Of a stretch of DNA of 64,000 nucleotides, positions 7,095 to 40,541 are shown piece by piece. The notes under the pieces were generated by a model. It did no database searches. It saw only the letters and a program-made list of their open reading frames with translations, and had not been told where the DNA came from. The position numbers and the translations under genes were made by a program. The DNA comes from Clostridia bacterium. GTDB lineage: Bacteria; Bacillota; Clostridia; Oscillospirales; Acutalibacteraceae. Positions within the stretch are counted from its first letter, which is position 1. Each line of letters begins with the position of its first letter. Location: assembly GCA_024404115.1 (NCBI GenBank), contig JAKSQM010000005.1:124001-188000 (forward strand), read 5' to 3'.

Positions 7095-8432
7095 TTATCT
7101 GCCAAGTCTTTTTTCAAGCTCAGCCTTCTGCTCTTCATAACCGGGTTTGCCGAGGAGTGCGAACATATTCTTTTTATAGCTCTCAACACCAGGCTGGTTA
7201 AAGGGATTCACTTCAAGAACATAGCCGCTGATTGCGCATGCCTTTTCAAGGAAGTAAATGAGCATTCCCAAATCGTATTCGTTCATTTCGTCAAGCTCAA
7301 TAACAACATTGGGAACTTCGCCGTCTGTATGAGCAAGAACGGTGCCCTCAAATGCTTTTTCGTTAACGAATGAAAGATTTTTGCCTGCAAGGAAGTTAAG
7401 ACCGTCAACATTGTCTTTATCCTCACCGATAAGAACCTCGCTCTGAGAATTCTTAAAGAAAACAACAGTTTCAAAGAGATGTCTTTCGCCCTGCTGAATA
7501 TACTGACCCATTGAATGAAGGTCGGTTGAGAAAACTGCGGATGTTGGGAAAATTCCCTTTCCGTCTTTGCCCTCGCTCTCGCCATAAAGCTGCTTGAACC
7601 ATTCATTCATCATTGTGTATGAGGGTTCGTAGCTTACCATCATTTCAATCTTTTTGCCCTTGCGGTAAAGGATATTTCTGATTGCGGCATATTTGTAGCA
7701 ATCATTTGCCATATCGCAATCTGCATATTTAACCATAGCATCCTTTGCGCCAAGCATAAGAGCGTCAATATCAATACCTGCAACAGCGATTGGAAGAAGA
7801 CCAACAGCTGTGAGAACTGAATATCTGCCACCTACGTTATCGGGAACAACGAATGTCTGCCATCCTTCAGAATCGGCAAACTTTTTAAGTGTGCCTTTTG
7901 CTTTATCGGTTGTGGCAAAAATTCTTTCTTTTGCGCCCTCTTTGCCGTATTTCTCTTCAAGCATACCCTTGAAGATTCTGAATGCAACGGCAGGCTCAGT
8001 TGTTGTGCCAGATTTTGAAATAACGTTCACGCTGAAATCACGGTCGCCAATAACGGCTTTAAGCTCGTTAAGTGAACGGGAGCTGATTGTGTTGCCCGCA
8101 AAATAAATGTCGGGTGTTGTTTTCGGCATAGCGTTGTAATTCTGTGATTTAATAAACTCGATTGCTGCTCTTGCGCCAAGATATGAACCGCCAATACCGA
8201 TAACGATAAGAACCTGTGAGTTATTCTGAATTTTTTCTGCTGCTTTCTTGATTGCTTCAAATTCAGCCTTATCATAATCCTCAGGTAATGTGAGCCAGCC
8301 TAAAAAGTCGCTGCCCTCACCTTTGCCGCTTAAAAGCAAATCGTGAGCCTTTTTGATTTCGGGCTGAATTGCTTCAAGCTCTGCCTCTGAAACGAAGCTG
8401 TTAAGATAATTTGTGTTAAGACCTAACGGCAT
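7095..8432 (-). CDS. pgi: glucose-6-phosphate isomerase
   Basis: Interconverts glucose 6-phosphate and fructose 6-phosphate in the cytoplasm, the second step of glycolysis. The length of 445 residues matches the short Firmicutes form. Seen in order: [11 protein letters not shown] (sugar-phosphate site), [13 protein letters not shown] (SIS phosphate-binding loop), [14 protein letters not shown] (signature), [11 protein letters not shown] with the conserved acidic residue, and the C-terminal [17 protein letters not shown] with the catalytic lysine region. The start codon lies behind GGAGG and there is a strong promoter at 8469-8497. The P-loop gene downstream is probably cotranscribed. Confidence 0.97.
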
Positions 8433-8468
8433 CCAAATGCCTCCAATTTGTTTTTTATTTATGGTTTT

Positions 8469-8497
8469 ATTATAACCTTAAAATAGAGTTTTTGCAA
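8469..8497 (-). promoter_or_regulatory. promoter of pgi
   Basis: On the minus strand TTGCAA is separated by 17 nt from a perfect TATAAT, about 36 nt before the pgi start codon. No obvious operator is seen. Confidence 0.75.
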
Positions 8498-8531
8498 GTA
8501 CTATTTAACAAAATTTAGAAGAATTTACAGT

Positions 8532-9689
8532 TTATTTTGAAAAAGTCGCCAAGATTTCTTTCAAAACCGATAAAAAAGTGGTCTTTTCCACATAGTGGGG
8601 AGCGGTCAGGTCATATGAACAAAGCAATTTGCCGTCAAGACTCAGGTCAATTTTGCCAAGCTTCTGCCCTGATTCAACAGGTGCTTCAACGCTTGCGGCA
8701 AGTGAAATATCCTGCGTAATATCTGCCTCTCTCCCCTTTGGGATGAGCACGGTAAAAGATGCGGGAAGCTGAGGTGTGATTTTACGCTCCTTGCCCATGG
8801 CGATATTCACATCTGCCAAAGATTCGGGAGCAACCTGCGGACTTACAGTTGACCAGTTGGCGAAGCCGTAATTGAGCATTGCTTTTGCGCCCTCAAAGCG
8901 GTCTGTGCTGTTATCACTGCCGAGGACAACGGCAATAAGCGAGGTGCCGTCCCTTGTGGCTGTTGCGCAAAGACAACACCCTGCCTTTGAGGTTGTGCCA
9001 GTTTTGAGCCCTGTGCATCCAGAATAAAATCGCACTAACTTATTTGTATTCACAAGCTGAGTTTCGCCGCCACGGAGGGAGTCCATCCAAATCGTTGTAT
9101 ATTTTGTGATAAATTCGTGGGTCATCAGCTCCCTTGCCATTAAAGCGATGTCATATGCGGTGGTTTTGTGGTTATGGGTGGTATCATCAAGACCTGTGCA
9201 GTTTTCAAAATGGGTATTTTTCATGCCAAGCTTTGCCGCACGCTCATTCATCATAACGATAAACGCATCTTCACTGCCAGCCACCAACTCCGCAAGGGCG
9301 GTGCAGGCATCGTTTGCGCTGTAAACCGCCATGGCTTTGAAAAGCTCATCAACTGTCATAGTTTCGCCCTCTTTGAGCCAAATCTGCGAACCGCCTTTCT
9401 TAACAGCGTTTGCGCTTGCGGTAACTTTATCGTCAAAAGAGATTTTTTCGTTGTCGATGGCTTCGCTCACAAGGAGCATTGTCATAATTTTTGTTACGGA
9501 TGCAGGGTACAGTTTTTCGTTCATATTATTGCTCATAAGCACTTTGCCAGAGTCAGCATCCATCAGCACAGCCGCCTTTGCCTTGACGGTAACGGGCATT
9601 GCCTGCTCTTTTGATGCCGCACGGACAGGAAAAGACGCTGACAGCACCAAAATCATACACAATATAAAAATACTAACGGTTTTTTTCAT
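8532..9689 (-). CDS. D-alanyl-D-alanine carboxypeptidase (S11, DacF/PBP5 type)
   Basis: Removes the terminal D-alanine from peptidoglycan pentapeptides outside the membrane. The start is set at 9689 behind GGAGGTG, giving 385 residues with a signal peptide (FILCMILVLSASFPVRA). All three serine-DD-peptidase motifs are present: SVTK (in YPASVTKIMTML), SAN (in YSANDACTAL) and KTG (in GLKTGTTSKAGC). The C-terminal beta domain follows and the protein ends with a short amphipathic helix (TFLSVLKEILATFSK) like the membrane anchor of PBP5. It is divergent from the alpha/beta hydrolase at 9812. Confidence 0.93.
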   Translation of the reverse strand: MKKTVSIFILCMILVLSASFPVRAASKEQAMPVTVKAKAAVLMDADSGKVLMSNNMNEKLYPASVTKIMTMLLVSEAIDNEKISFDDKVTASANAVKKGGSQIWLKEGETMTVDELFKAMAVYSANDACTALAELVAGSEDAFIVMMNERAAKLGMKNTHFENCTGLDDTTHNHKTTAYDIALMARELMTHEFITKYTTIWMDSLRGGETQLVNTNKLVRFYSGCTGLKTGTTSKAGCCLCATATRDGTSLIAVVLGSDNSTDRFEGAKAMLNYGFANWSTVSPQVAPESLADVNIAMGKERKITPQLPASFTVLIPKGREADITQDISLAASVEAPVESGQKLGKIDLSLDGKLLCSYDLTAPHYVEKTTFLSVLKEILATFSK

Positions 9690-30707: not shown

Positions 30708-31556
30708 TTATTTACCCATAAATGACTTCACATATGAAAGAACCATGCTGACGGCTTTTCTTACTATATACTTGATAAATTCAAAGGTGAAGAAATCGTT
30801 CTGATTGATGCCTGCGTGCTTAATAACAAGCTCTGTTTTGTCGGTAAGCTTCAGCTCGTTGAGCTTTGCAAGAACAAGCTTTGCGATAACCACATTGCCC
30901 TCTGCGTTGGGGTGAATGTAATCGGGTGCGATATATTCGCTATGACCTGCAAACGCCTTTGCAACATCAATCAGCTCATATGCGCCTACGTTTTCAGCGA
31001 TATACTGTCTGTAGCGAGCGTTAAGTCTGTCTGCACCCTGCTGGTATGCTTCTTTAACAAAATCGTTGCCGGGGTTATAAAGAGTCTGAACAATTATTGT
31101 TGCGTTGGGGTTAAGTTCTTTGATTTTTGCAATTATTTTGCAGAAATTCTCATAAAATTCTGCGGTAATTTCATCAAAGCGGGTGTAATTGCCGTTCTTT
31201 GCCTCGCTGATAAGGCTTGACATATCGCCACGGAGGAAATCGTTACCGCCGATTGAGATGCTGATAATGTCAGCCACTTTAACATCTGCGCTGATTTTTT
31301 CTTTTTCAAGGTGCTTAATAAGGTCTGATGTGCGGTAGCCGTTGATGGCATCATTGGTGAAGTCAAAGCCAGTTGTGTCTGCAACAATTCTGCCGAAGCA
31401 GGCTTCGTCGCTATTAAGCACGCCTGCGCCATAGCCGATTGAATCGCCGAGAACAAGGTATTTCAGTGTTTTCTCCCCTGCAAATGCTGTGGTTGCGATG
31501 CCGAACATCATAATAAGCGCCAGAACAATTGATAAAATTTTTCGTGAAAGTTTCAT
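30708..31556 (-). CDS. secreted SGNH/GDSL hydrolase
   Basis: The start is ATG 31556 behind AAGGAGGA; 282 residues. Signal peptide ILSIVLALIMMFGIATTAFA. Block I nucleophile in VLGDSIGYGAG, oxyanion Gly and Asn in ISIGGNDFLRG and the catalytic Asp-His in DYIHPNAEG. It would deacylate sugars or lipids outside the cell. The C-terminus (KYIVRKAVSMVLSYVKSFMGK) is an amphipathic basic tail, similar in character to the tails of three other exported proteins in the window. Confidence 0.88.
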   Translation of the reverse strand: MKLSRKILSIVLALIMMFGIATTAFAGEKTLKYLVLGDSIGYGAGVLNSDEACFGRIVADTTGFDFTNDAINGYRTSDLIKHLEKEKISADVKVADIISISIGGNDFLRGDMSSLISEAKNGNYTRFDEITAEFYENFCKIIAKIKELNPNATIIVQTLYNPGNDFVKEAYQQGADRLNARYRQYIAENVGAYELIDVAKAFAGHSEYIAPDYIHPNAEGNVVIAKLVLAKLNELKLTDKTELVIKHAGINQNDFFTFEFIKYIVRKAVSMVLSYVKSFMGK

Positions 31557-31578
31557 AGAACTTCCTCCTTTCAGGGTA

Positions 31579-31607
31579 ATTTTAACATTAAAAAAGAATT
31601 TTAGCAA
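31579..31607 (-). promoter_or_regulatory. promoter of the SGNH hydrolase gene
   Basis: TTGCTA, 17 nt, TAAAAT on the minus strand; the leader before the start codon is about 20 nt. Confidence 0.6.
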
Positions 31608-32572: not shown

Positions 32573-32575
32573 GCA

Positions 32576-32766
32576 ACTCCCTGCTATGCACGATAACTGC
32601 TGTCTATATTAACCCAACACATTTTAAAAAGGGAGCCTATTCTCTGTTGCTGGGCATGCAGACCTCCCGATATTTCGGACGTTGGGAGCACAAAAACAAC
32701 AGGAGGCAACCCACCTGCTTTTAACCGCAGGTTACTATCGGCAGCTCCCGGCACAGCGGGGTTTGT
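32576..32766 (+). ncRNA. ssrS: probable 6S RNA
   Basis: A non-coding stretch with the layout I associate with clostridial 6S RNA, which binds RNA polymerase by imitating an open promoter. The ends pair (CCCUGCU at 32579-32585 with AGCGGGG at 32755-32761). The middle carries GCAUGCAGACCUCCCG, a CUCCCgauauuucggacguuGGGAG hairpin region, ACAACAGGAGGCAACCCACCUGC and CCGCAGGUUACUAUCGG. A covariance search would settle it. It lies between the DUF1292 gene and the beta-propeller gene. The antisense frame that covers it is taken to be spurious. Confidence 0.6.
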
Positions 32767-34843: not shown

Positions 34844-35374
34844 ATGATTAAAAAAATATTATCCTTTACCCTTGCGGCTATTATAATTTTTTGTATGTTT
34901 TCTATGAACGCAGGTGCGGTGTCTGCAATCAAGCGAATTGATGTTGATTTCAACACCGAAATTGCAGGAATGACAGCATACGATTATCAAAAAATCTACA
35001 CCATAAACACAAAAAATGTTGGCTATCTTGATTATTTTGAGGGCGACAACGGCATTTATGTTTATGAGGGCAGTAAATACATCGGCTATGCCACACTTGA
35101 AAGCGGCAAAAGCTACAACTTCAAAATCAATATGAGATCTTATGCTGACATTGACAAGAATGTTGAAATTTATATCAACGGCAAGAAAATAGACAGCAAC
35201 AATGTTAGCATCACCAAAAGTGTTGACCCAAAGGGCGATAAATGCACCGTTATTCAGGCGAACTACCTTGGTGTTAAGGTAACTGACAGCGGTAATTTCT
35301 TCACAAGAATTTTTAAGGCTATTGCGAATTTCTTTGGTGGAATCGGCAATTTCTTTAAATCAATTTTTGGTTGA
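34844..35374 (+). CDS. small secreted protein with aromatic amphipathic tail
   Basis: A protein of 176 residues behind CGGAGG with a signal peptide (ILSFTLAAIIIFCMFSMNAGA). The mature part looks all-beta (GIYVYEGSKYIGYATLES, KNVEIYINGKKI), like a small Ig-like or carbohydrate-binding module. It ends in FFTRIFKAIANFFGGIGNFF and a further KSIFG, an amphipathic helix rich in Phe and Lys, nearly the same in style as the tails of the two large riboswitch-operon proteins. I suggest the tail attaches the protein to the membrane. Function unknown. Confidence 0.65.
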   Translation: MIKKILSFTLAAIIIFCMFSMNAGAVSAIKRIDVDFNTEIAGMTAYDYQKIYTINTKNVGYLDYFEGDNGIYVYEGSKYIGYATLESGKSYNFKINMRSYADIDKNVEIYINGKKIDSNNVSITKSVDPKGDKCTVIQANYLGVKVTDSGNFFTRIFKAIANFFGGIGNFFKSIFG

Positions 35375-36024: not shown

Positions 36025-36729
36025 TTAGGCTATTGCGCCCAGATCTTCGCCCATATCGCAGGTGTAGCACAGGCTGATTTTGTCGCCGTTTTTCACTTTA
36101 TACTGACTGCTTCCGTAGTTTGGAAACTCTCCGTTAACGCAGTACATCCAGCCCGACTGCGTGCCGCAATCCTTTTCATAAAGCTGGTGGATGCCACGGA
36201 TATAGTTGCTGTCATAGCCAGGGGTATAGACAAAATCAAGGTGGATACCGTCCTTTTTGCAGAAGTTACAGTTATCGGTGCAGGTGCTTTCACTGCACCC
36301 TTTTTTTATCACATCAAATGCCGTGCTGCCCTCAGGAACAGACACCTTTTTTGCCTTTAAAATGTATCCGTTTTTTGGAACAAACGGCAGTTTATTCTCG
36401 TTGAGATTTTCTATATTTTTCAGAATATTTTCGCATGAAATCTCAAGAGTGCAAGTGATAGTTTTTTTAGCGGTTGTCTTTTTTTCTGTAGGCTTTGATG
36501 TTGAGTTTTCAGATTTTTCTGTTGTTTCTGCTTTTGCAGTTTTTGAAGTTTTTGTTGTGGTGGTTGTTGTTTCTTTTTGTTTTTCAGTAGTAAAAATTGT
36601 TGTGGATTTTGTTGTGGTTGTGGCAGAATTTTGCGTGGAAGTATTGTCCGTTTCTGTTACAGTTAATCCACAGGAACTAAGAAGAAAAACAAAAGAAAAA
36701 ATCAAAAAAATTGAGAAGAATTTTTTCAT
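36025..36729 (-). CDS. DUF4430 lipoprotein, third gene of the cobalamin-riboswitch operon
   Basis: A protein of 234 residues. The signal peptide ends in a lipobox (FLLSSCGL), so it is anchored to the outer face of the membrane. A Thr-rich linker (about residues 30-90) leads to a DUF4430 domain: SVPEGSTAFDVIKKG, HLDFVYTPGYDSNYIRGI, CGTQSGWMYCVNGEFPNY, and a closing YKVKNGDKISLCYT. DUF4430 resembles the C-terminal domain of the vitamin B12 carriers transcobalamin and intrinsic factor. Eight Cys residues, mostly in pairs (CTDNCNFC), are unusual. The start is 17 nt after the preceding gene. A role in capturing corrinoids is inferred from the fold and the riboswitch. Confidence 0.8.
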   Translation of the reverse strand: MKKFFSIFLIFSFVFLLSSCGLTVTETDNTSTQNSATTTTKSTTIFTTEKQKETTTTTTKTSKTAKAETTEKSENSTSKPTEKKTTAKKTITCTLEISCENILKNIENLNENKLPFVPKNGYILKAKKVSVPEGSTAFDVIKKGCSESTCTDNCNFCKKDGIHLDFVYTPGYDSNYIRGIHQLYEKDCGTQSGWMYCVNGEFPNYGSSQYKVKNGDKISLCYTCDMGEDLGAIA

Positions 36730-36746
36730 ATTTTTACCTCAAAAAT

Positions 36747-38072
36747 TTATTTAAAAAGATTCCTAAAAAAGTTGATAATTGCACTGAAAAATTTCTTAAT
36801 TCCGCTTTCACTTTTTCTGTTTTTATTGGCAATGGCAAAGATGTAACCAGAGTCATTTTTATAAAAAAGTGTGCCGTCATTATCACAGACAATTGTGCTG
36901 ACGGAGTAATTGGCTTTGTCCCCCTCTGGATTGAAAAGCTCTGCTTTCTGCGCCTTTGTCTGACCCACGGAATCAGTATAAACGCTGATGCCGCCAGGGA
37001 GCGCATTGTATGTTGTGTAAACATAAACCTTGCCAGAATCCTTTAAATTTTTATCGCAGACGAGGACATTGTTTTGCGGATAACCGTTGGCAGGAGCAGA
37101 ATAAATCACAGTCATTTTGGAGGGGTCAGTCACCTTGATGCTGCCCTCTTTCATAGACTTCCCCTGCACACCAACATAGAGCCTGCCGTTGCAGATAACA
37201 GGCGTGGATGTGGAAGCTCCGCCGAGGTTGAGCTTTTTGAGGGAAGCGGAATCGAACTTGCCGTTATTCACTTTCACGCTGTAAAGATAGCCTGCTTTTG
37301 TAACGAAATAAACGGTGTTGCCGTTGATGGTTATACTGGAGCGTTGATCGCCTGTAATTGAGAGAGAATCGGTAAGTTTGCCTGTGTTTTTGTTCAAACT
37401 GAGGATTTTTGATGGTTTATTGGCATAAAGTGTGCCGTCATCGGTGCCGACAATCACATTTTCACCGCTGAAATCACAGCCTGCCCAGTAAAATCCCCCA
37501 AGACTTTTATAAGCCCACTTAGCATTTTTCGCTTCTTTCTGATCTTTTTTATTTTCGTCCTTTACATCAATGCAGACAAAATTTGCATATGCGTCCTCGT
37601 TATTCCAAAAGCCAGTGAAGATGCATCCGTCAGAATAATTTATGGGGCTGAGGGACTGACCGCCCAGCTTGTCTTTATAAATCCACATTGATTTAAGGCT
37701 CTTGAAATTGAACGCCTGAATGGTGCCGTTATCAAGCGGACAATAAACAACACCGTCCGCATAAAACGGAGCAGTGTAGTTGTAACTTGGTGCCTCCGCC
37801 ATCTCTGCCTGCTTCAGAATTTTGCCGTTTTTCACATTCAGTTTATAAAGAGTTTTGCCGCTCATAACGAGCAATGAATCATCAACCACCGCCATGGTGC
37901 TTGGCGCATTTTTATATGATGTGCCGAATTGTTTGCACCAAAGAAGCTCGGCTTCGTCTGCGCTGACAGGCGTATTCGCTGATGTTACATTCACCGCAAA
38001 GCACTGAAAAGTGCAGGCAAAAATCATCAGAATTGCAACGAAAAATGTTATTGATTTTTTTAAAAATTTCAT
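36747..38072 (-). CDS. exported PQQ-like beta-propeller protein, second gene of the riboswitch operon
   Basis: The start is ATG 38072 behind AGGGGTGA, five bases after the first gene; 441 residues. Signal peptide FFVAILMIFACTFQCFAV. Seven to eight propeller blades with the PQQ/WD-like pattern: VVDDSLLVMSGKTLYKLNVKNGKILKQ-type strands, GVVYCPLDNGTIQAFNFKSLK, NTVYFVTKAGYLYSVKVNNG, and GRLYVGVQGKSMKEG. The C-terminus IKKFFSAIINFFRNLFK is the aromatic amphipathic tail. It may be a binding scaffold that works with the two DUF4430 proteins. Confidence 0.75.
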   Translation of the reverse strand: MKFLKKSITFFVAILMIFACTFQCFAVNVTSANTPVSADEAELLWCKQFGTSYKNAPSTMAVVDDSLLVMSGKTLYKLNVKNGKILKQAEMAEAPSYNYTAPFYADGVVYCPLDNGTIQAFNFKSLKSMWIYKDKLGGQSLSPINYSDGCIFTGFWNNEDAYANFVCIDVKDENKKDQKEAKNAKWAYKSLGGFYWAGCDFSGENVIVGTDDGTLYANKPSKILSLNKNTGKLTDSLSITGDQRSSITINGNTVYFVTKAGYLYSVKVNNGKFDSASLKKLNLGGASTSTPVICNGRLYVGVQGKSMKEGSIKVTDPSKMTVIYSAPANGYPQNNVLVCDKNLKDSGKVYVYTTYNALPGGISVYTDSVGQTKAQKAELFNPEGDKANYSVSTIVCDNDGTLFYKNDSGYIFAIANKNRKSESGIKKFFSAIINFFRNLFK

Positions 38073-38077
38073 ACAAA

Positions 38078-40294
38078 TCACCCCTTAAAAATTGATACAA
38101 AAAACTCACCGATTTTTTTGAAAAAGCTGACAATTTTTTGCCAGATAAATTGAAGCCATCCGCAAAAAGTTGTTGGCTTTTTGTTATCATTTTGAGTAAC
38201 AGTTACGGTGGCAAAATTGGTGATAACAGGTGTGCCGTCTGCGGTTTCGCCCGACACAAAAATTGTGTATTCTCCCTCTTCAGAGAATTTTATTTTTGCG
38301 TTGCCTTTTTTATCTGTCTTACCGAGCGATACATTTTCGCCATTGATAACTGCAAAAATTTCAACACCATTCAAAGCGGTTGCGTACTTATTTTTTATAT
38401 CGTCAAGTGTGTTAATTCCGTGCTCCATTACACCATAGCCTGTGAGATTTATTGTGAATTTTTCGCCAGCATTTGCGGTGTAATTTTGTGCATCAAACAA
38501 GGGGTACAAATCCTCAAAATAGCGTGAATCTTTATACATAAAAAGTGAAACAAAATCGCCGTCATTGACCCTCGCAGTGTCGCAGGCATAGCCTGTTGCG
38601 CCGCCAAAATCGGGGTTGAAAATGCCGTCATTGGGCATAACATCATTGACGGTGAATCCCCACGCAGAGGAGCTTTGATTAAATGCACGGGTGATAAAGC
38701 TGCCGCTCATCACAAGATATTTTTCGGGATTTTTTGTGAAATCGTCGCCATAAATTTCACGATGCACAGCGGAGATAACATCAAAAACTGTTACGTTCTC
38801 CACAGACTTTCCGTTATGGTCGGTAGTGGCTGTTTCGTAGCCGAGGTTTTCAGCATCAAGGGAGCTGACAGTGATTTCTTTCTTAGGAACGCTGACCTCC
38901 CCGCCGCTGAGCGAGAAAGAAACAGTTGCAAAAGCTTGCTTTCGGGGAGCGATAACAGTTACCTTGCAACTTTTGCCTGCACCTGAGGCGGTTTTTGCGG
39001 TGATGAATGCAGTGCCCACAGCGTTGGCGGTGATTTTGCCGTTTTCGTCCACGGAAGCAACGGAATCATCAGAAGAAGCGAAGTTGATTTTTTCGCCATT
39101 TGAAGCGGTGGCGGTGAGCTGTGCGGTTTTGCCCTTTTCAAGCTCTATTTCATCAGCTGAAAGAGTGATTTCAACATCATTTGCTGATGAAGTGATGTTA
39201 AAATAATAAATCAGCGGTTCACATTCTCCATTTTGAACAATCACACGAACAATTCCTTTTTCGGGCACAGAATCAAAATGGCGGGAAGTGCCACGGGTAT
39301 TATTGATATAAACATTGCTCTCGGTTTCAACCGACAAATCGAAGGAGCTGTTTGCGGTGATTTCGTATGTAAATTTGTCGCTTTCGAGGGGGATTTTTTC
39401 GCCGTCAACGGTGATGCAATCGGGAACTTCTGTTGTGGCAATTTTTTCGCCCTCGGGAGTAACTGAAAGAGCGGAAATTTCTGTTGATTTTTCGCCAAAA
39501 ATTCCACCGTTAATGAATGTGGCGGTCTGAACTTTTACAAATTTTATCCAATCAAGTGAAACGGGTGCGCCGTTTTCGTCCACCGCCCACGAAATATCAA
39601 ACTGACCGTCTGCGCCGTTTTTCTGCGGATTTTCTCCGTAGGGATTCACAAGGCTTGCCGACTTCGGGAGCGTGTCAACATAGCCAAAAGATGTTGTGAT
39701 GCCGTTGTTGGTCGAGGGGGTGGTGAGCTTTCTTAAAAGTATGCCAGTGAGGGTCAGAGAATCTTCCTCAAAAGTGGCTTTCGGGTAGTTTTCTTTCAGC
39801 GGATACTGACCGTTGACGGTGCCATTTTCGCCAAGAGAATCGGAAAAGCTGCACTTATTCCCCTCGCCTTTTGTGTATGTGAGGGAGTAATTCCACTGGG
39901 TTTCGTCCTCAAAATGCTCGCTGCCTGCAAGGGCGAACCAGTTTTCGCCATCCTGCGACACCCACACCTGCCCCGGCTCCTGCGTGGTGGCGGCACCGTT
40001 GAAGCTGTTGCCTGCGATTGTGAAATCTATGCCGTAGGGGTGATTCTGCGAATTTTGCACAGGATTCAGAAATTCATAGACAGCAAAGCCGCCAAAATTG
40101 CCGAGGGAAGTGATTGTGCCGTTGAGCGTGGCATCGATATTGATGCCGAAATTTGCGTTGTTGGTGTACTGGCTGGGTGCGTTGAGATACTGGCGGACAG
40201 ATGCCACAGGCTCCGCACCGCAAGCTATGAGGGGTGTGAGGGTATTCAGCAGAAGCACAGCCAGCAAAATGCTGAGAATTTTTTTGATTTTCAT
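38078..40294 (-). CDS. exported Ig-like/DUF4430 protein, first gene of the riboswitch operon
   Basis: The start is ATG 40294 behind AAAGGATG; 738 residues. Signal peptide ILSILLAVLLLNTLTPLIACG. An N-terminal beta-sandwich with GQVWVSQDGENWFALAG (about 1-250), an Ig-like bacterial BIG2 domain with LSADEIELEKGKTAQLTATA and VASVDENGKITANAVG (about 370-440), then a DUF4430-like region with ENVTVFDVISAVHREIYG, SSSAWGFTVNDVMPN and VNDGDFVSLFMYKDS, and a last beta domain ending in GEYTIFVSGETADG. The tail WQKIVSFFKKIGEFFVSIFK is amphipathic. It would be displayed at the cell surface. Corrinoid binding is inferred, not shown. Confidence 0.78.
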   Translation of the reverse strand: MKIKKILSILLAVLLLNTLTPLIACGAEPVASVRQYLNAPSQYTNNANFGINIDATLNGTITSLGNFGGFAVYEFLNPVQNSQNHPYGIDFTIAGNSFNGAATTQEPGQVWVSQDGENWFALAGSEHFEDETQWNYSLTYTKGEGNKCSFSDSLGENGTVNGQYPLKENYPKATFEEDSLTLTGILLRKLTTPSTNNGITTSFGYVDTLPKSASLVNPYGENPQKNGADGQFDISWAVDENGAPVSLDWIKFVKVQTATFINGGIFGEKSTEISALSVTPEGEKIATTEVPDCITVDGEKIPLESDKFTYEITANSSFDLSVETESNVYINNTRGTSRHFDSVPEKGIVRVIVQNGECEPLIYYFNITSSANDVEITLSADEIELEKGKTAQLTATASNGEKINFASSDDSVASVDENGKITANAVGTAFITAKTASGAGKSCKVTVIAPRKQAFATVSFSLSGGEVSVPKKEITVSSLDAENLGYETATTDHNGKSVENVTVFDVISAVHREIYGDDFTKNPEKYLVMSGSFITRAFNQSSSAWGFTVNDVMPNDGIFNPDFGGATGYACDTARVNDGDFVSLFMYKDSRYFEDLYPLFDAQNYTANAGEKFTINLTGYGVMEHGINTLDDIKNKYATALNGVEIFAVINGENVSLGKTDKKGNAKIKFSEEGEYTIFVSGETADGTPVITNFATVTVTQNDNKKPTTFCGWLQFIWQKIVSFFKKIGEFFVSIFKG

Positions 40295-40321
40295 AGAAAC
40301 ATCCTTTCTTTTTGGGCAAAA

Positions 40322-40348
40322 CAAAAACGCCCCCGATAACGAGGGCGC
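40322..40348 (-). terminator. attenuator of the cobalamin riboswitch
   Basis: On the minus strand GCGCCCTCG, loop TTAT, CGGGGGCG, then TTTTTGTTTT, lying between the aptamer and the first gene of the operon. It would stop transcription when the ligand is bound. Confidence 0.75.
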
Positions 40349-40415
40349 AAAGATGCAGACTATTCCACAGCGGAAACAGACGATTGACCTTCTTGCCCAA
40401 AGTTTTCGTTAAAAA

Positions 40416-40503
40416 TGAGCTATCAGGTCTTCCGGCTTTGTGAAAAATCACTCACGGTAATGGCTGTTGCGACGGAATTTCACCGAACTTCCCACTGATT
40501 GAC
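40416..40503 (-). promoter_or_regulatory. cobalamin riboswitch (aptamer)
   Basis: The minus strand reads GGGAAGUUCGGUGAAAUUCC, then CGCAACAGCCAUUACCGUGA, and AGCCGGAAGACCUGAUA, which are the conserved core and the B12 box of cobalamin riboswitches. Its RNA starts from a consensus promoter (40513-40541) and runs through an attenuator at 40322-40348 into the three-gene exported-protein operon. Binding of cobalamin should lower expression. The absence of a full-length peripheral domain suggests a compact subclass. Confidence 0.88.
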
Positions 40504-40512
40504 TTCAAGGGA

Positions 40513-40541
40513 ATTTTACTCTTTTTTAGGGAGAATGTCAA
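40513..40541 (-). promoter_or_regulatory. promoter of the riboswitch operon
   Basis: TTGACA, 17 nt, TAAAAT on the minus strand, placing the transcript start about 10 nt before the aptamer. Confidence 0.8.

Follow-up and report, generated by a model that had tools for sequence, protein, structure and literature searches.

A stretch of 64,000 nt (here referred to as the window) from a Clostridia bacterium of the Acutalibacteraceae (GCA_024404115.1, contig JAKSQM010000005.1, positions 124,001-188,000) carries on its minus strand a group of genes that appears to encode the exported half of a corrinoid (B12) uptake system. Reading from 40541 down to 36025, a promoter is followed by a compact cobalamin-type leader and, after a terminator-like hairpin, by three genes, which are separated by gaps of 5 and 17 bases and would be transcribed as one unit (Table 1). 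All three products have a signal-peptide-like N terminus, and in the third the LSSC motif is one that we take to be a lipobox. This arrangement agrees with an earlier sequence-only reading of the stretch, which had described a consensus promoter, an attenuator hairpin and three close-packed minus-strand genes for exported proteins, the second a PQQ-like propeller and the third a DUF4430 lipoprotein. Taken alone the promoter site is weak, as a scan found 13 promoter-like sites compared with 6.9 in shuffles. The hairpin is the top one of 19 terminator-like hairpins listed, and ties in pairs with one on the opposite strand. Fetched loci are given L-numbers below, genomes G-numbers (G000 is the host genome) and contigs C-numbers.

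Table 1. Features of the operon, with positions in the window
Feature	Position	Strand	Details
Sigma-70 promoter	40513..40541	-	TTGACA-17-TAAAAT, 11/12 consensus positions
Predicted compact cobalamin-class riboswitch aptamer	40405..40534	-	RF00174 21.7 bits, plus family covariation
Terminator-like hairpin (attenuator)	40327..40348	-	9-pair GC-rich stem then TTTTGTTTTG; between aptamer and first gene
Large exported protein	38078..40294	-	738 amino acids (aa); signal peptide, BtuH-type domain, Big_2, weak DUF4430-like region, hydrophobic C-terminal tail
BtuH-type domain of large protein	39452..40213	-	residues 28-281
Big_2 immunoglobulin (Ig)-like domain of large protein	38969..39169	-	residues 376-442; PF02368, 9.4e-9
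Exported PQQ_2/BamB-like beta-propeller	36747..38072	-	441 aa; PF13360, 1.8e-11
DUF4430 lipoprotein	36025..36729	-	234 aa; lipobox-like LSSC ending at Cys20, Thr/Lys-rich linker; PF14478, 5.2e-15
DUF4430 domain, predicted transcobalamin/intrinsic-factor beta-domain fold	36049..36468	-	residues 88-227

The leader scores below the 31.5-bit cut-off of RF00174 (E 0.0016 in a 501-base scan; E 0.00185 in a scan of the whole genome, where only two places reach E 10 or better), and neither of these two places is listed under stricter search filters. The sequence-only reading, which had proposed a cobalamin riboswitch, had named a score under this threshold as grounds for rejecting it, and such a score is what was obtained. 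However, a core-pattern search of the window and the fetched loci found the same core in 12 distinct elements, two of them from the host genome. One of nine loci scanned with Rfam cut-offs, L074, passes that of the AdoCbl-II model RF01689 (39.8 vs 36.5 bits), and the second element of the host genome scores 31.7 bits against the same model. In an alignment of 11 elements, the consensus structure is paired in 96.3 % of cells and the covariation score is 0.153, compared with 0.072 in shuffles, none of which (0/500) scores so well, and no more than 0.079 in slid controls. The outer stem has four pairs in which both bases have changed, and at least as many are seen in 46 of 500 shuffles. Model R1 gives 100.6 bits at 40406-40516, the window sequence being one of the 11 used to build it, and a covariance model of the compact class matches 36 of 200 family genomes at E 0.001 or better, including genomes whose elements went into it. 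Because of the 12 elements with the same core, the L074 match and the covarying stems, the leader is considered to be real, and the covariation and the relatives are the reason why the Rfam shortfall was set aside. As the curated cut-off is not reached, it is called cobalamin-class and not a member of RF00174; we read it as a compact class of cobalamin riboswitch that falls between the models RF00174 and RF01689. The earlier riboswitch claim holds for the core and covarying stems, which are shared with relatives and are followed by a terminator before the first gene, but not for the RF00174 score.

In six of nine leaders (L006, L071, L072, L073, L079 and L126), the conserved motif CTTTGGGC pairs best with the 5' arm of the terminator; in L075 the best partner takes in the loop and the arms, and in L081 and the window it is located past the terminator. 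As its position varies, no single antiterminator pairing was found for all nine. The departure of the window from the six leaders with a 5'-arm partner, together with the RF00174 score, could be taken to indicate a decayed, non-functional riboswitch and a constitutive operon. We regard this as very improbable, given that the core matches the other elements, that the stems have been kept through compensatory change and that both promoter and terminator are there.

In the large protein, which the sequence-only reading had described as an Ig-like/DUF4430 protein, Pfam supports Big_2, but the DUF4430 match is below threshold (13.6 vs 23.8 bits) and a BtuH-type domain had been overlooked. This domain is homologous in sequence and predicted fold to the B12-binding domain of BtuH2. 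The DUF4430 match was rejected as the B12 domain of this protein, being below cut-off and accounting for less than the BtuH-type domain, and on homology and modelled fold the main B12 domain is likely the BtuH-like one. DUF4465/BtuJ, a further B12 family according to passages of PMC13398666, was not matched in Pfam and homology searches of the operon proteins. The second protein is a BamB-like propeller by its sequence matches, with 74 % mean column identity over eight orthologues.

The third protein passes the DUF4430 cut-off, and comparison of its predicted structure over the 1000 best Foldseek chains gives its beta domain the transcobalamin/intrinsic-factor fold, a likeness that had been proposed earlier. 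This assignment rests on the structure comparison of the model and not on sequence searches. In the PDB search with the DUF4430 domain, a collagen match at 3.5e-5 ranked ahead of transcobalamin and was judged to be due to chance, and the full-length profile matched PDB entries solely outside the domain or in low-complexity parts. Four cysteines in an insert (C145, C150, C154 and C157) are invariant in five near orthologues; remoter DUF4430 rows lack most of the insert. This insert, the same fold in the Ruminococcus gnavus PDB protein 3u7z, which is titled 'putative metal binding protein', and the presence of Ig-like domains in known adhesins would fit proteins that bind another ligand (a metal such as cobalt, a glycan or an adhesion partner) and are merely co-regulated with B12 status. 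However, for the large protein and the lipoprotein the best structural neighbours of the predicted structures are known B12 carriers, and there is the association with cobalamin riboswitches (see below), and we consider a different ligand improbable.

The only other place in the genome matching RF00174 at E 10 or better is at about 207.6-211.3 kb on G000:C1. It precedes genes for a small HNH_repeat protein, EcfT, a fused double ATPase and an S component, i.e. an energy-coupling factor (ECF) transporter. The S component has CbrT as its best PDB match (6fnp, 1e-14), followed by 5d0y (1.4e-6), a folate S component (5d3m, 2.6e-6) and a riboflavin uptake protein (0.001). The ATPases are over cut-off, and EcfT reaches 24.0 of the 25 bits set for PF02361. 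No BtuC-type (FecCD) permease passes the Pfam cut-off in the host genome, which is 84 % complete (best 19.1 vs 26.5 bits). The sequence-only reading had seen no B12 ABC transporter, had offered an importer elsewhere as one explanation and had suggested comparing the neighbours of homologous operons; the ECF locus behind its own riboswitch fits that explanation, and the comparison uncovered an ECF transporter with a CbrT-like S component.

In relatives, the two loci form a single operon consisting of a riboswitch, HNH_repeat, the BtuH-type protein, the propeller, EcfT, ATPases, S component and DUF4430 lipoprotein. It is complete in L071/L124, L072/L121 and L126, and runs off the contig in L078/L122, L070/L119, L120 and L079/L123. 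A propeller tree and a tree of EcfT plus ATPases both place the host near the same relative (G008, contig 17), with support of 0.58 in one, and for this reason we prefer, without regarding it as proved, that the two loci of the host arose by a split of one ancestral operon. In most of the relatives seen, the HNH_repeat protein (PF18780, 1.6e-10; L006 5836-6102 and orthologues) comes after the riboswitch; in the host it has stayed with the ECF half, and the window half lacks it. The named relatives are metagenome-assembled genomes from horse faeces and goat rumen, together with assemblies labelled Ruminococcaceae, Oscillospiraceae, Saccharofermentans or Clostridia, and judging from these the host would be a gut dweller.

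Among 60 relatives, 35 of 47 RF00174 matches (E 0.1 or better) are followed on their own strand by a DUF4430 match no more than 9 kb away, where random placement in genomes of 2.1 Mb would give about 0.16, in line with the co-occurrence of DUF4430 and B12 regulation on which the earlier reading depended. DUF4430 was found upstream of two riboswitches, both of them second switches within such operons, and on the opposite strand of none. Three of the 12 riboswitches with no DUF4430 downstream are near contig ends (G008:C52, G016:C113 and G001:C38). At class level (118 genomes, the riboswitch count leaving out three genomes already used), 26 of 149 riboswitches among the matches listed have DUF4430 downstream and four have it upstream (0.44 expected).

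BtuH-type domains were found at E 1e-8 in seven of 394 genomes of the order, including the host, and the locus was fetched from each of the other six (L171-L176). In four of these (L171, L172, L173 and L175), a protein of 1157-1502 aa combines a BtuH-type domain with DUF4430 stretches and is followed by a second DUF4430 protein, EcfT and an ATPase-S fusion, with an extra gene between in L175. Cobalamin riboswitches over cut-off lie before the L172 and L173 genes, and one is 2.8 kb upstream in L176 with other genes intervening; none was found at L171, L174 or L175. In L176, which is from a relative in another family, a stop codon splits the BtuH-type domain (7206-8921). A sister group has as partner a single protein combining a toroid with DUF4430, in L076 (4621-6339, minus strand; Prenyltrans 29.4 vs 26.5 bits) and L077 (7846-9537, minus strand; SQHop_cyclase_C 28.9 vs 26.1 bits, with Prenyltrans slightly below cut-off). 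Both operons include over-cut-off cobalamin riboswitches and ECF genes. A hydrophobic, membrane-like stretch separates toroid from DUF4430 in both.

In the fetched part of a MetH-like enzyme of the host, the homocysteine methyltransferase, pterin-binding and both B12-binding domains pass their cut-offs; the enzyme scores 418 bits to the MetH equivalog model, below the cut-off of that full-length model. CbiD was not found in the 84 % complete host genome, and the host is probably unable to make B12.

With good confidence, we propose that the operon encodes the exported half of a corrinoid uptake system, with binding by its proteins predicted from sequence and modelled structure. Surface capture of corrinoids, as put forward in the sequence-only reading, remains the best explanation because of the riboswitch class, the BtuH-type domain, the transcobalamin-type fold and the ECF operon of relatives with its CbrT-like S component; the basis is a cobalamin-class leader, domain homology, predicted folds, operon conservation and the MetH-like enzyme. 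When intracellular cobalamin is low, the riboswitch, acting as an OFF switch, would let transcription pass the terminator. The three exported proteins then made, namely a BtuH-domain/Ig-like surface protein, a beta-propeller and a lipoprotein with a transcobalamin-type beta domain, would trap scarce corrinoids outside the cell and hand them to the CbrT-like S component. The ECF transporter itself would come from the second operon, which has a riboswitch of this kind too, the genes forming one operon in relatives and apparently being split in the host.

Several findings weigh against this proposal. The whole-window scan gave no cobalamin riboswitch over the Rfam cut-off in the leader, and 37 of the 83 DUF4430 matches are linked to a listed riboswitch, leaving 46 with none upstream. 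Absences from a host genome of this completeness are merely suggestive. The model of the large protein has low confidence (mean predicted local distance difference test, pLDDT, 67.5), DUF4430 matches transcobalamin in the PDB weakly by sequence alone (0.19 and 0.26), and the PDB search with the propeller returned BamB chains and designed propellers, with no BtuG among the best 20. Pfam assigns the S component to a riboflavin family (PF07155, 3e-12), whose cut-off it passes; it reaches the cut-off of none of the NCBIfam S-component models, so its substrate is a prediction. In the same genus, a lone BtuH-domain gene at L125/L080 has no ECF gene in the fetched stretch, as is also the case at L174 and L176, and in L081 an otherwise similar operon has a first protein that lacks the BtuH part. 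The riboflavin-family name and the lone BtuH-domain genes led us to lower our confidence very slightly.

The contact residues also differ. Of the polar B12 contacts of BtuH2 that can be placed (Gln333 is outside the aligned part), only Asn399, on the phosphate side, is kept, in 13 of 13 Clostridia rows. His476, Tyr510, Trp511 and Trp577 are unconserved there, in contrast to the H domain of BtuG1, which retains His476, Trp511 and Trp577. For this reason the domain is recorded as a homologue with a remodelled site and not as BtuH. With the corrin-side-chain contacts unconserved and the phosphate-side Asn kept, and with the capture genes and importer of the host on separate transcripts, the exported proteins might act mainly on cobinamide or other cobamides, or serve as a surface store, without loading cobalamin into this ECF transporter. 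We consider this unlikely, though less so than the other alternatives, as the same genes share an operon with ECF genes in relatives and CbrT is the best PDB match of the S component.

Intrinsic factor combines an alpha/alpha-toroid with a beta domain. Vertebrate transcobalamin, intrinsic factor and haptocorrin share the beta-domain fold of the lipoprotein, and the toroid plus DUF4430 proteins of L076 and L077 resemble them further; however, the aligned beta domain is only 15-20 % identical, no toroid is found in the window, and the bacterial protein is membrane-anchored. ECF transporters are not known to use extracellular binding proteins. A tentative extension, to which we give slightly less than even weight, is that DUF4430 proteins act as bacterial 'transcobalamins', exported subunits that bind B12 for a whole class of ECF transporters, that the toroid plus beta plan has a bacterial counterpart in L076 and L077, and that Bacteroidota and Clostridia exchanged BtuH-type domains, placing the same capture layer on a different importer. 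DUF4430, a widespread domain of unknown function, gains a testable role in B12 uptake, and the relation of the intrinsic factor/transcobalamin beta domain to bacterial capture proteins is raised. No tie of DUF4430 to bacterial B12 uptake was found in searches of open-licence literature. The link between lipoprotein and ECF transporter may already have been predicted under a SEED label, 'additional lipoprotein component of predicted cobalamin ECF transporter'; this phrase was not found in the literature matches listed.

A TonB system and an outer membrane are not expected in Clostridia. The operon looks like a Gram-positive counterpart of Bacteroides surface capture, coupled to an ECF transporter in place of BtuB. 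Judging from passages of PMC8941943 and PMC10404256, it shares with BtuH/BtuG of Bacteroides thetaiotaomicron a homologous B12-binding domain with Ig-like domains, a propeller, a cobalamin riboswitch and transporter genes. However, there is no BtuB partner, the BtuH-type domain is N-terminal with most B12 contacts different, and the propeller, unlike BtuG, matches BamB-type chains. EUBSIR_01285 of Eubacterium siraeum is named in the discussion in PMC8941943 but not analysed there, and the passages concerned mention no adjoining DUF4430 or propeller. The ECF-CbrT of Lactobacillus delbrueckii (passages of PMC5997447; 6FNP) is the best match of the S component and likewise has EcfT and ATPase components, but here EcfT and a fused double ATPase share the operon with S, and relatives add the exported proteins. 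Both systems were known already and the logic is ordinary; the combination of parts is unexpected.

Similar hydrophobic/basic, mostly Phe-rich tails (such as FFKSIFG and FFRNLFK) end four of 47 listed open reading frames in the window, all with a signal peptide (30708-31607, 36747-38081 and 38078-40324 on the minus strand, 34844-35374 on the plus strand). Several orthologues of the first two operon genes have similar C-terminal tails, and this is possibly a clade-specific membrane tail. The window also contains a 6S RNA (32575-32766, plus strand, 60.5 bits). A third DUF4430 protein over cut-off in the host genome (G000:C34:6442-6627; L007 6415-6828) has a YceG/MltG gene (8.3e-54) as its neighbour, and no riboswitch is among the matches listed at that place. 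Its short-type relatives are behind cobalamin riboswitches, with a small S-component-like gene. In L087 (1731-2707) and L088 (8140-9047), RF00174 switches of 101.1 and 103.5 bits precede a gene for a short DUF4430 protein and another of 167 aa; the latter has no Pfam hit and a BLAST match to the S component (6e-14 in L087). This set may perhaps represent a second, smaller type of B12 uptake system.
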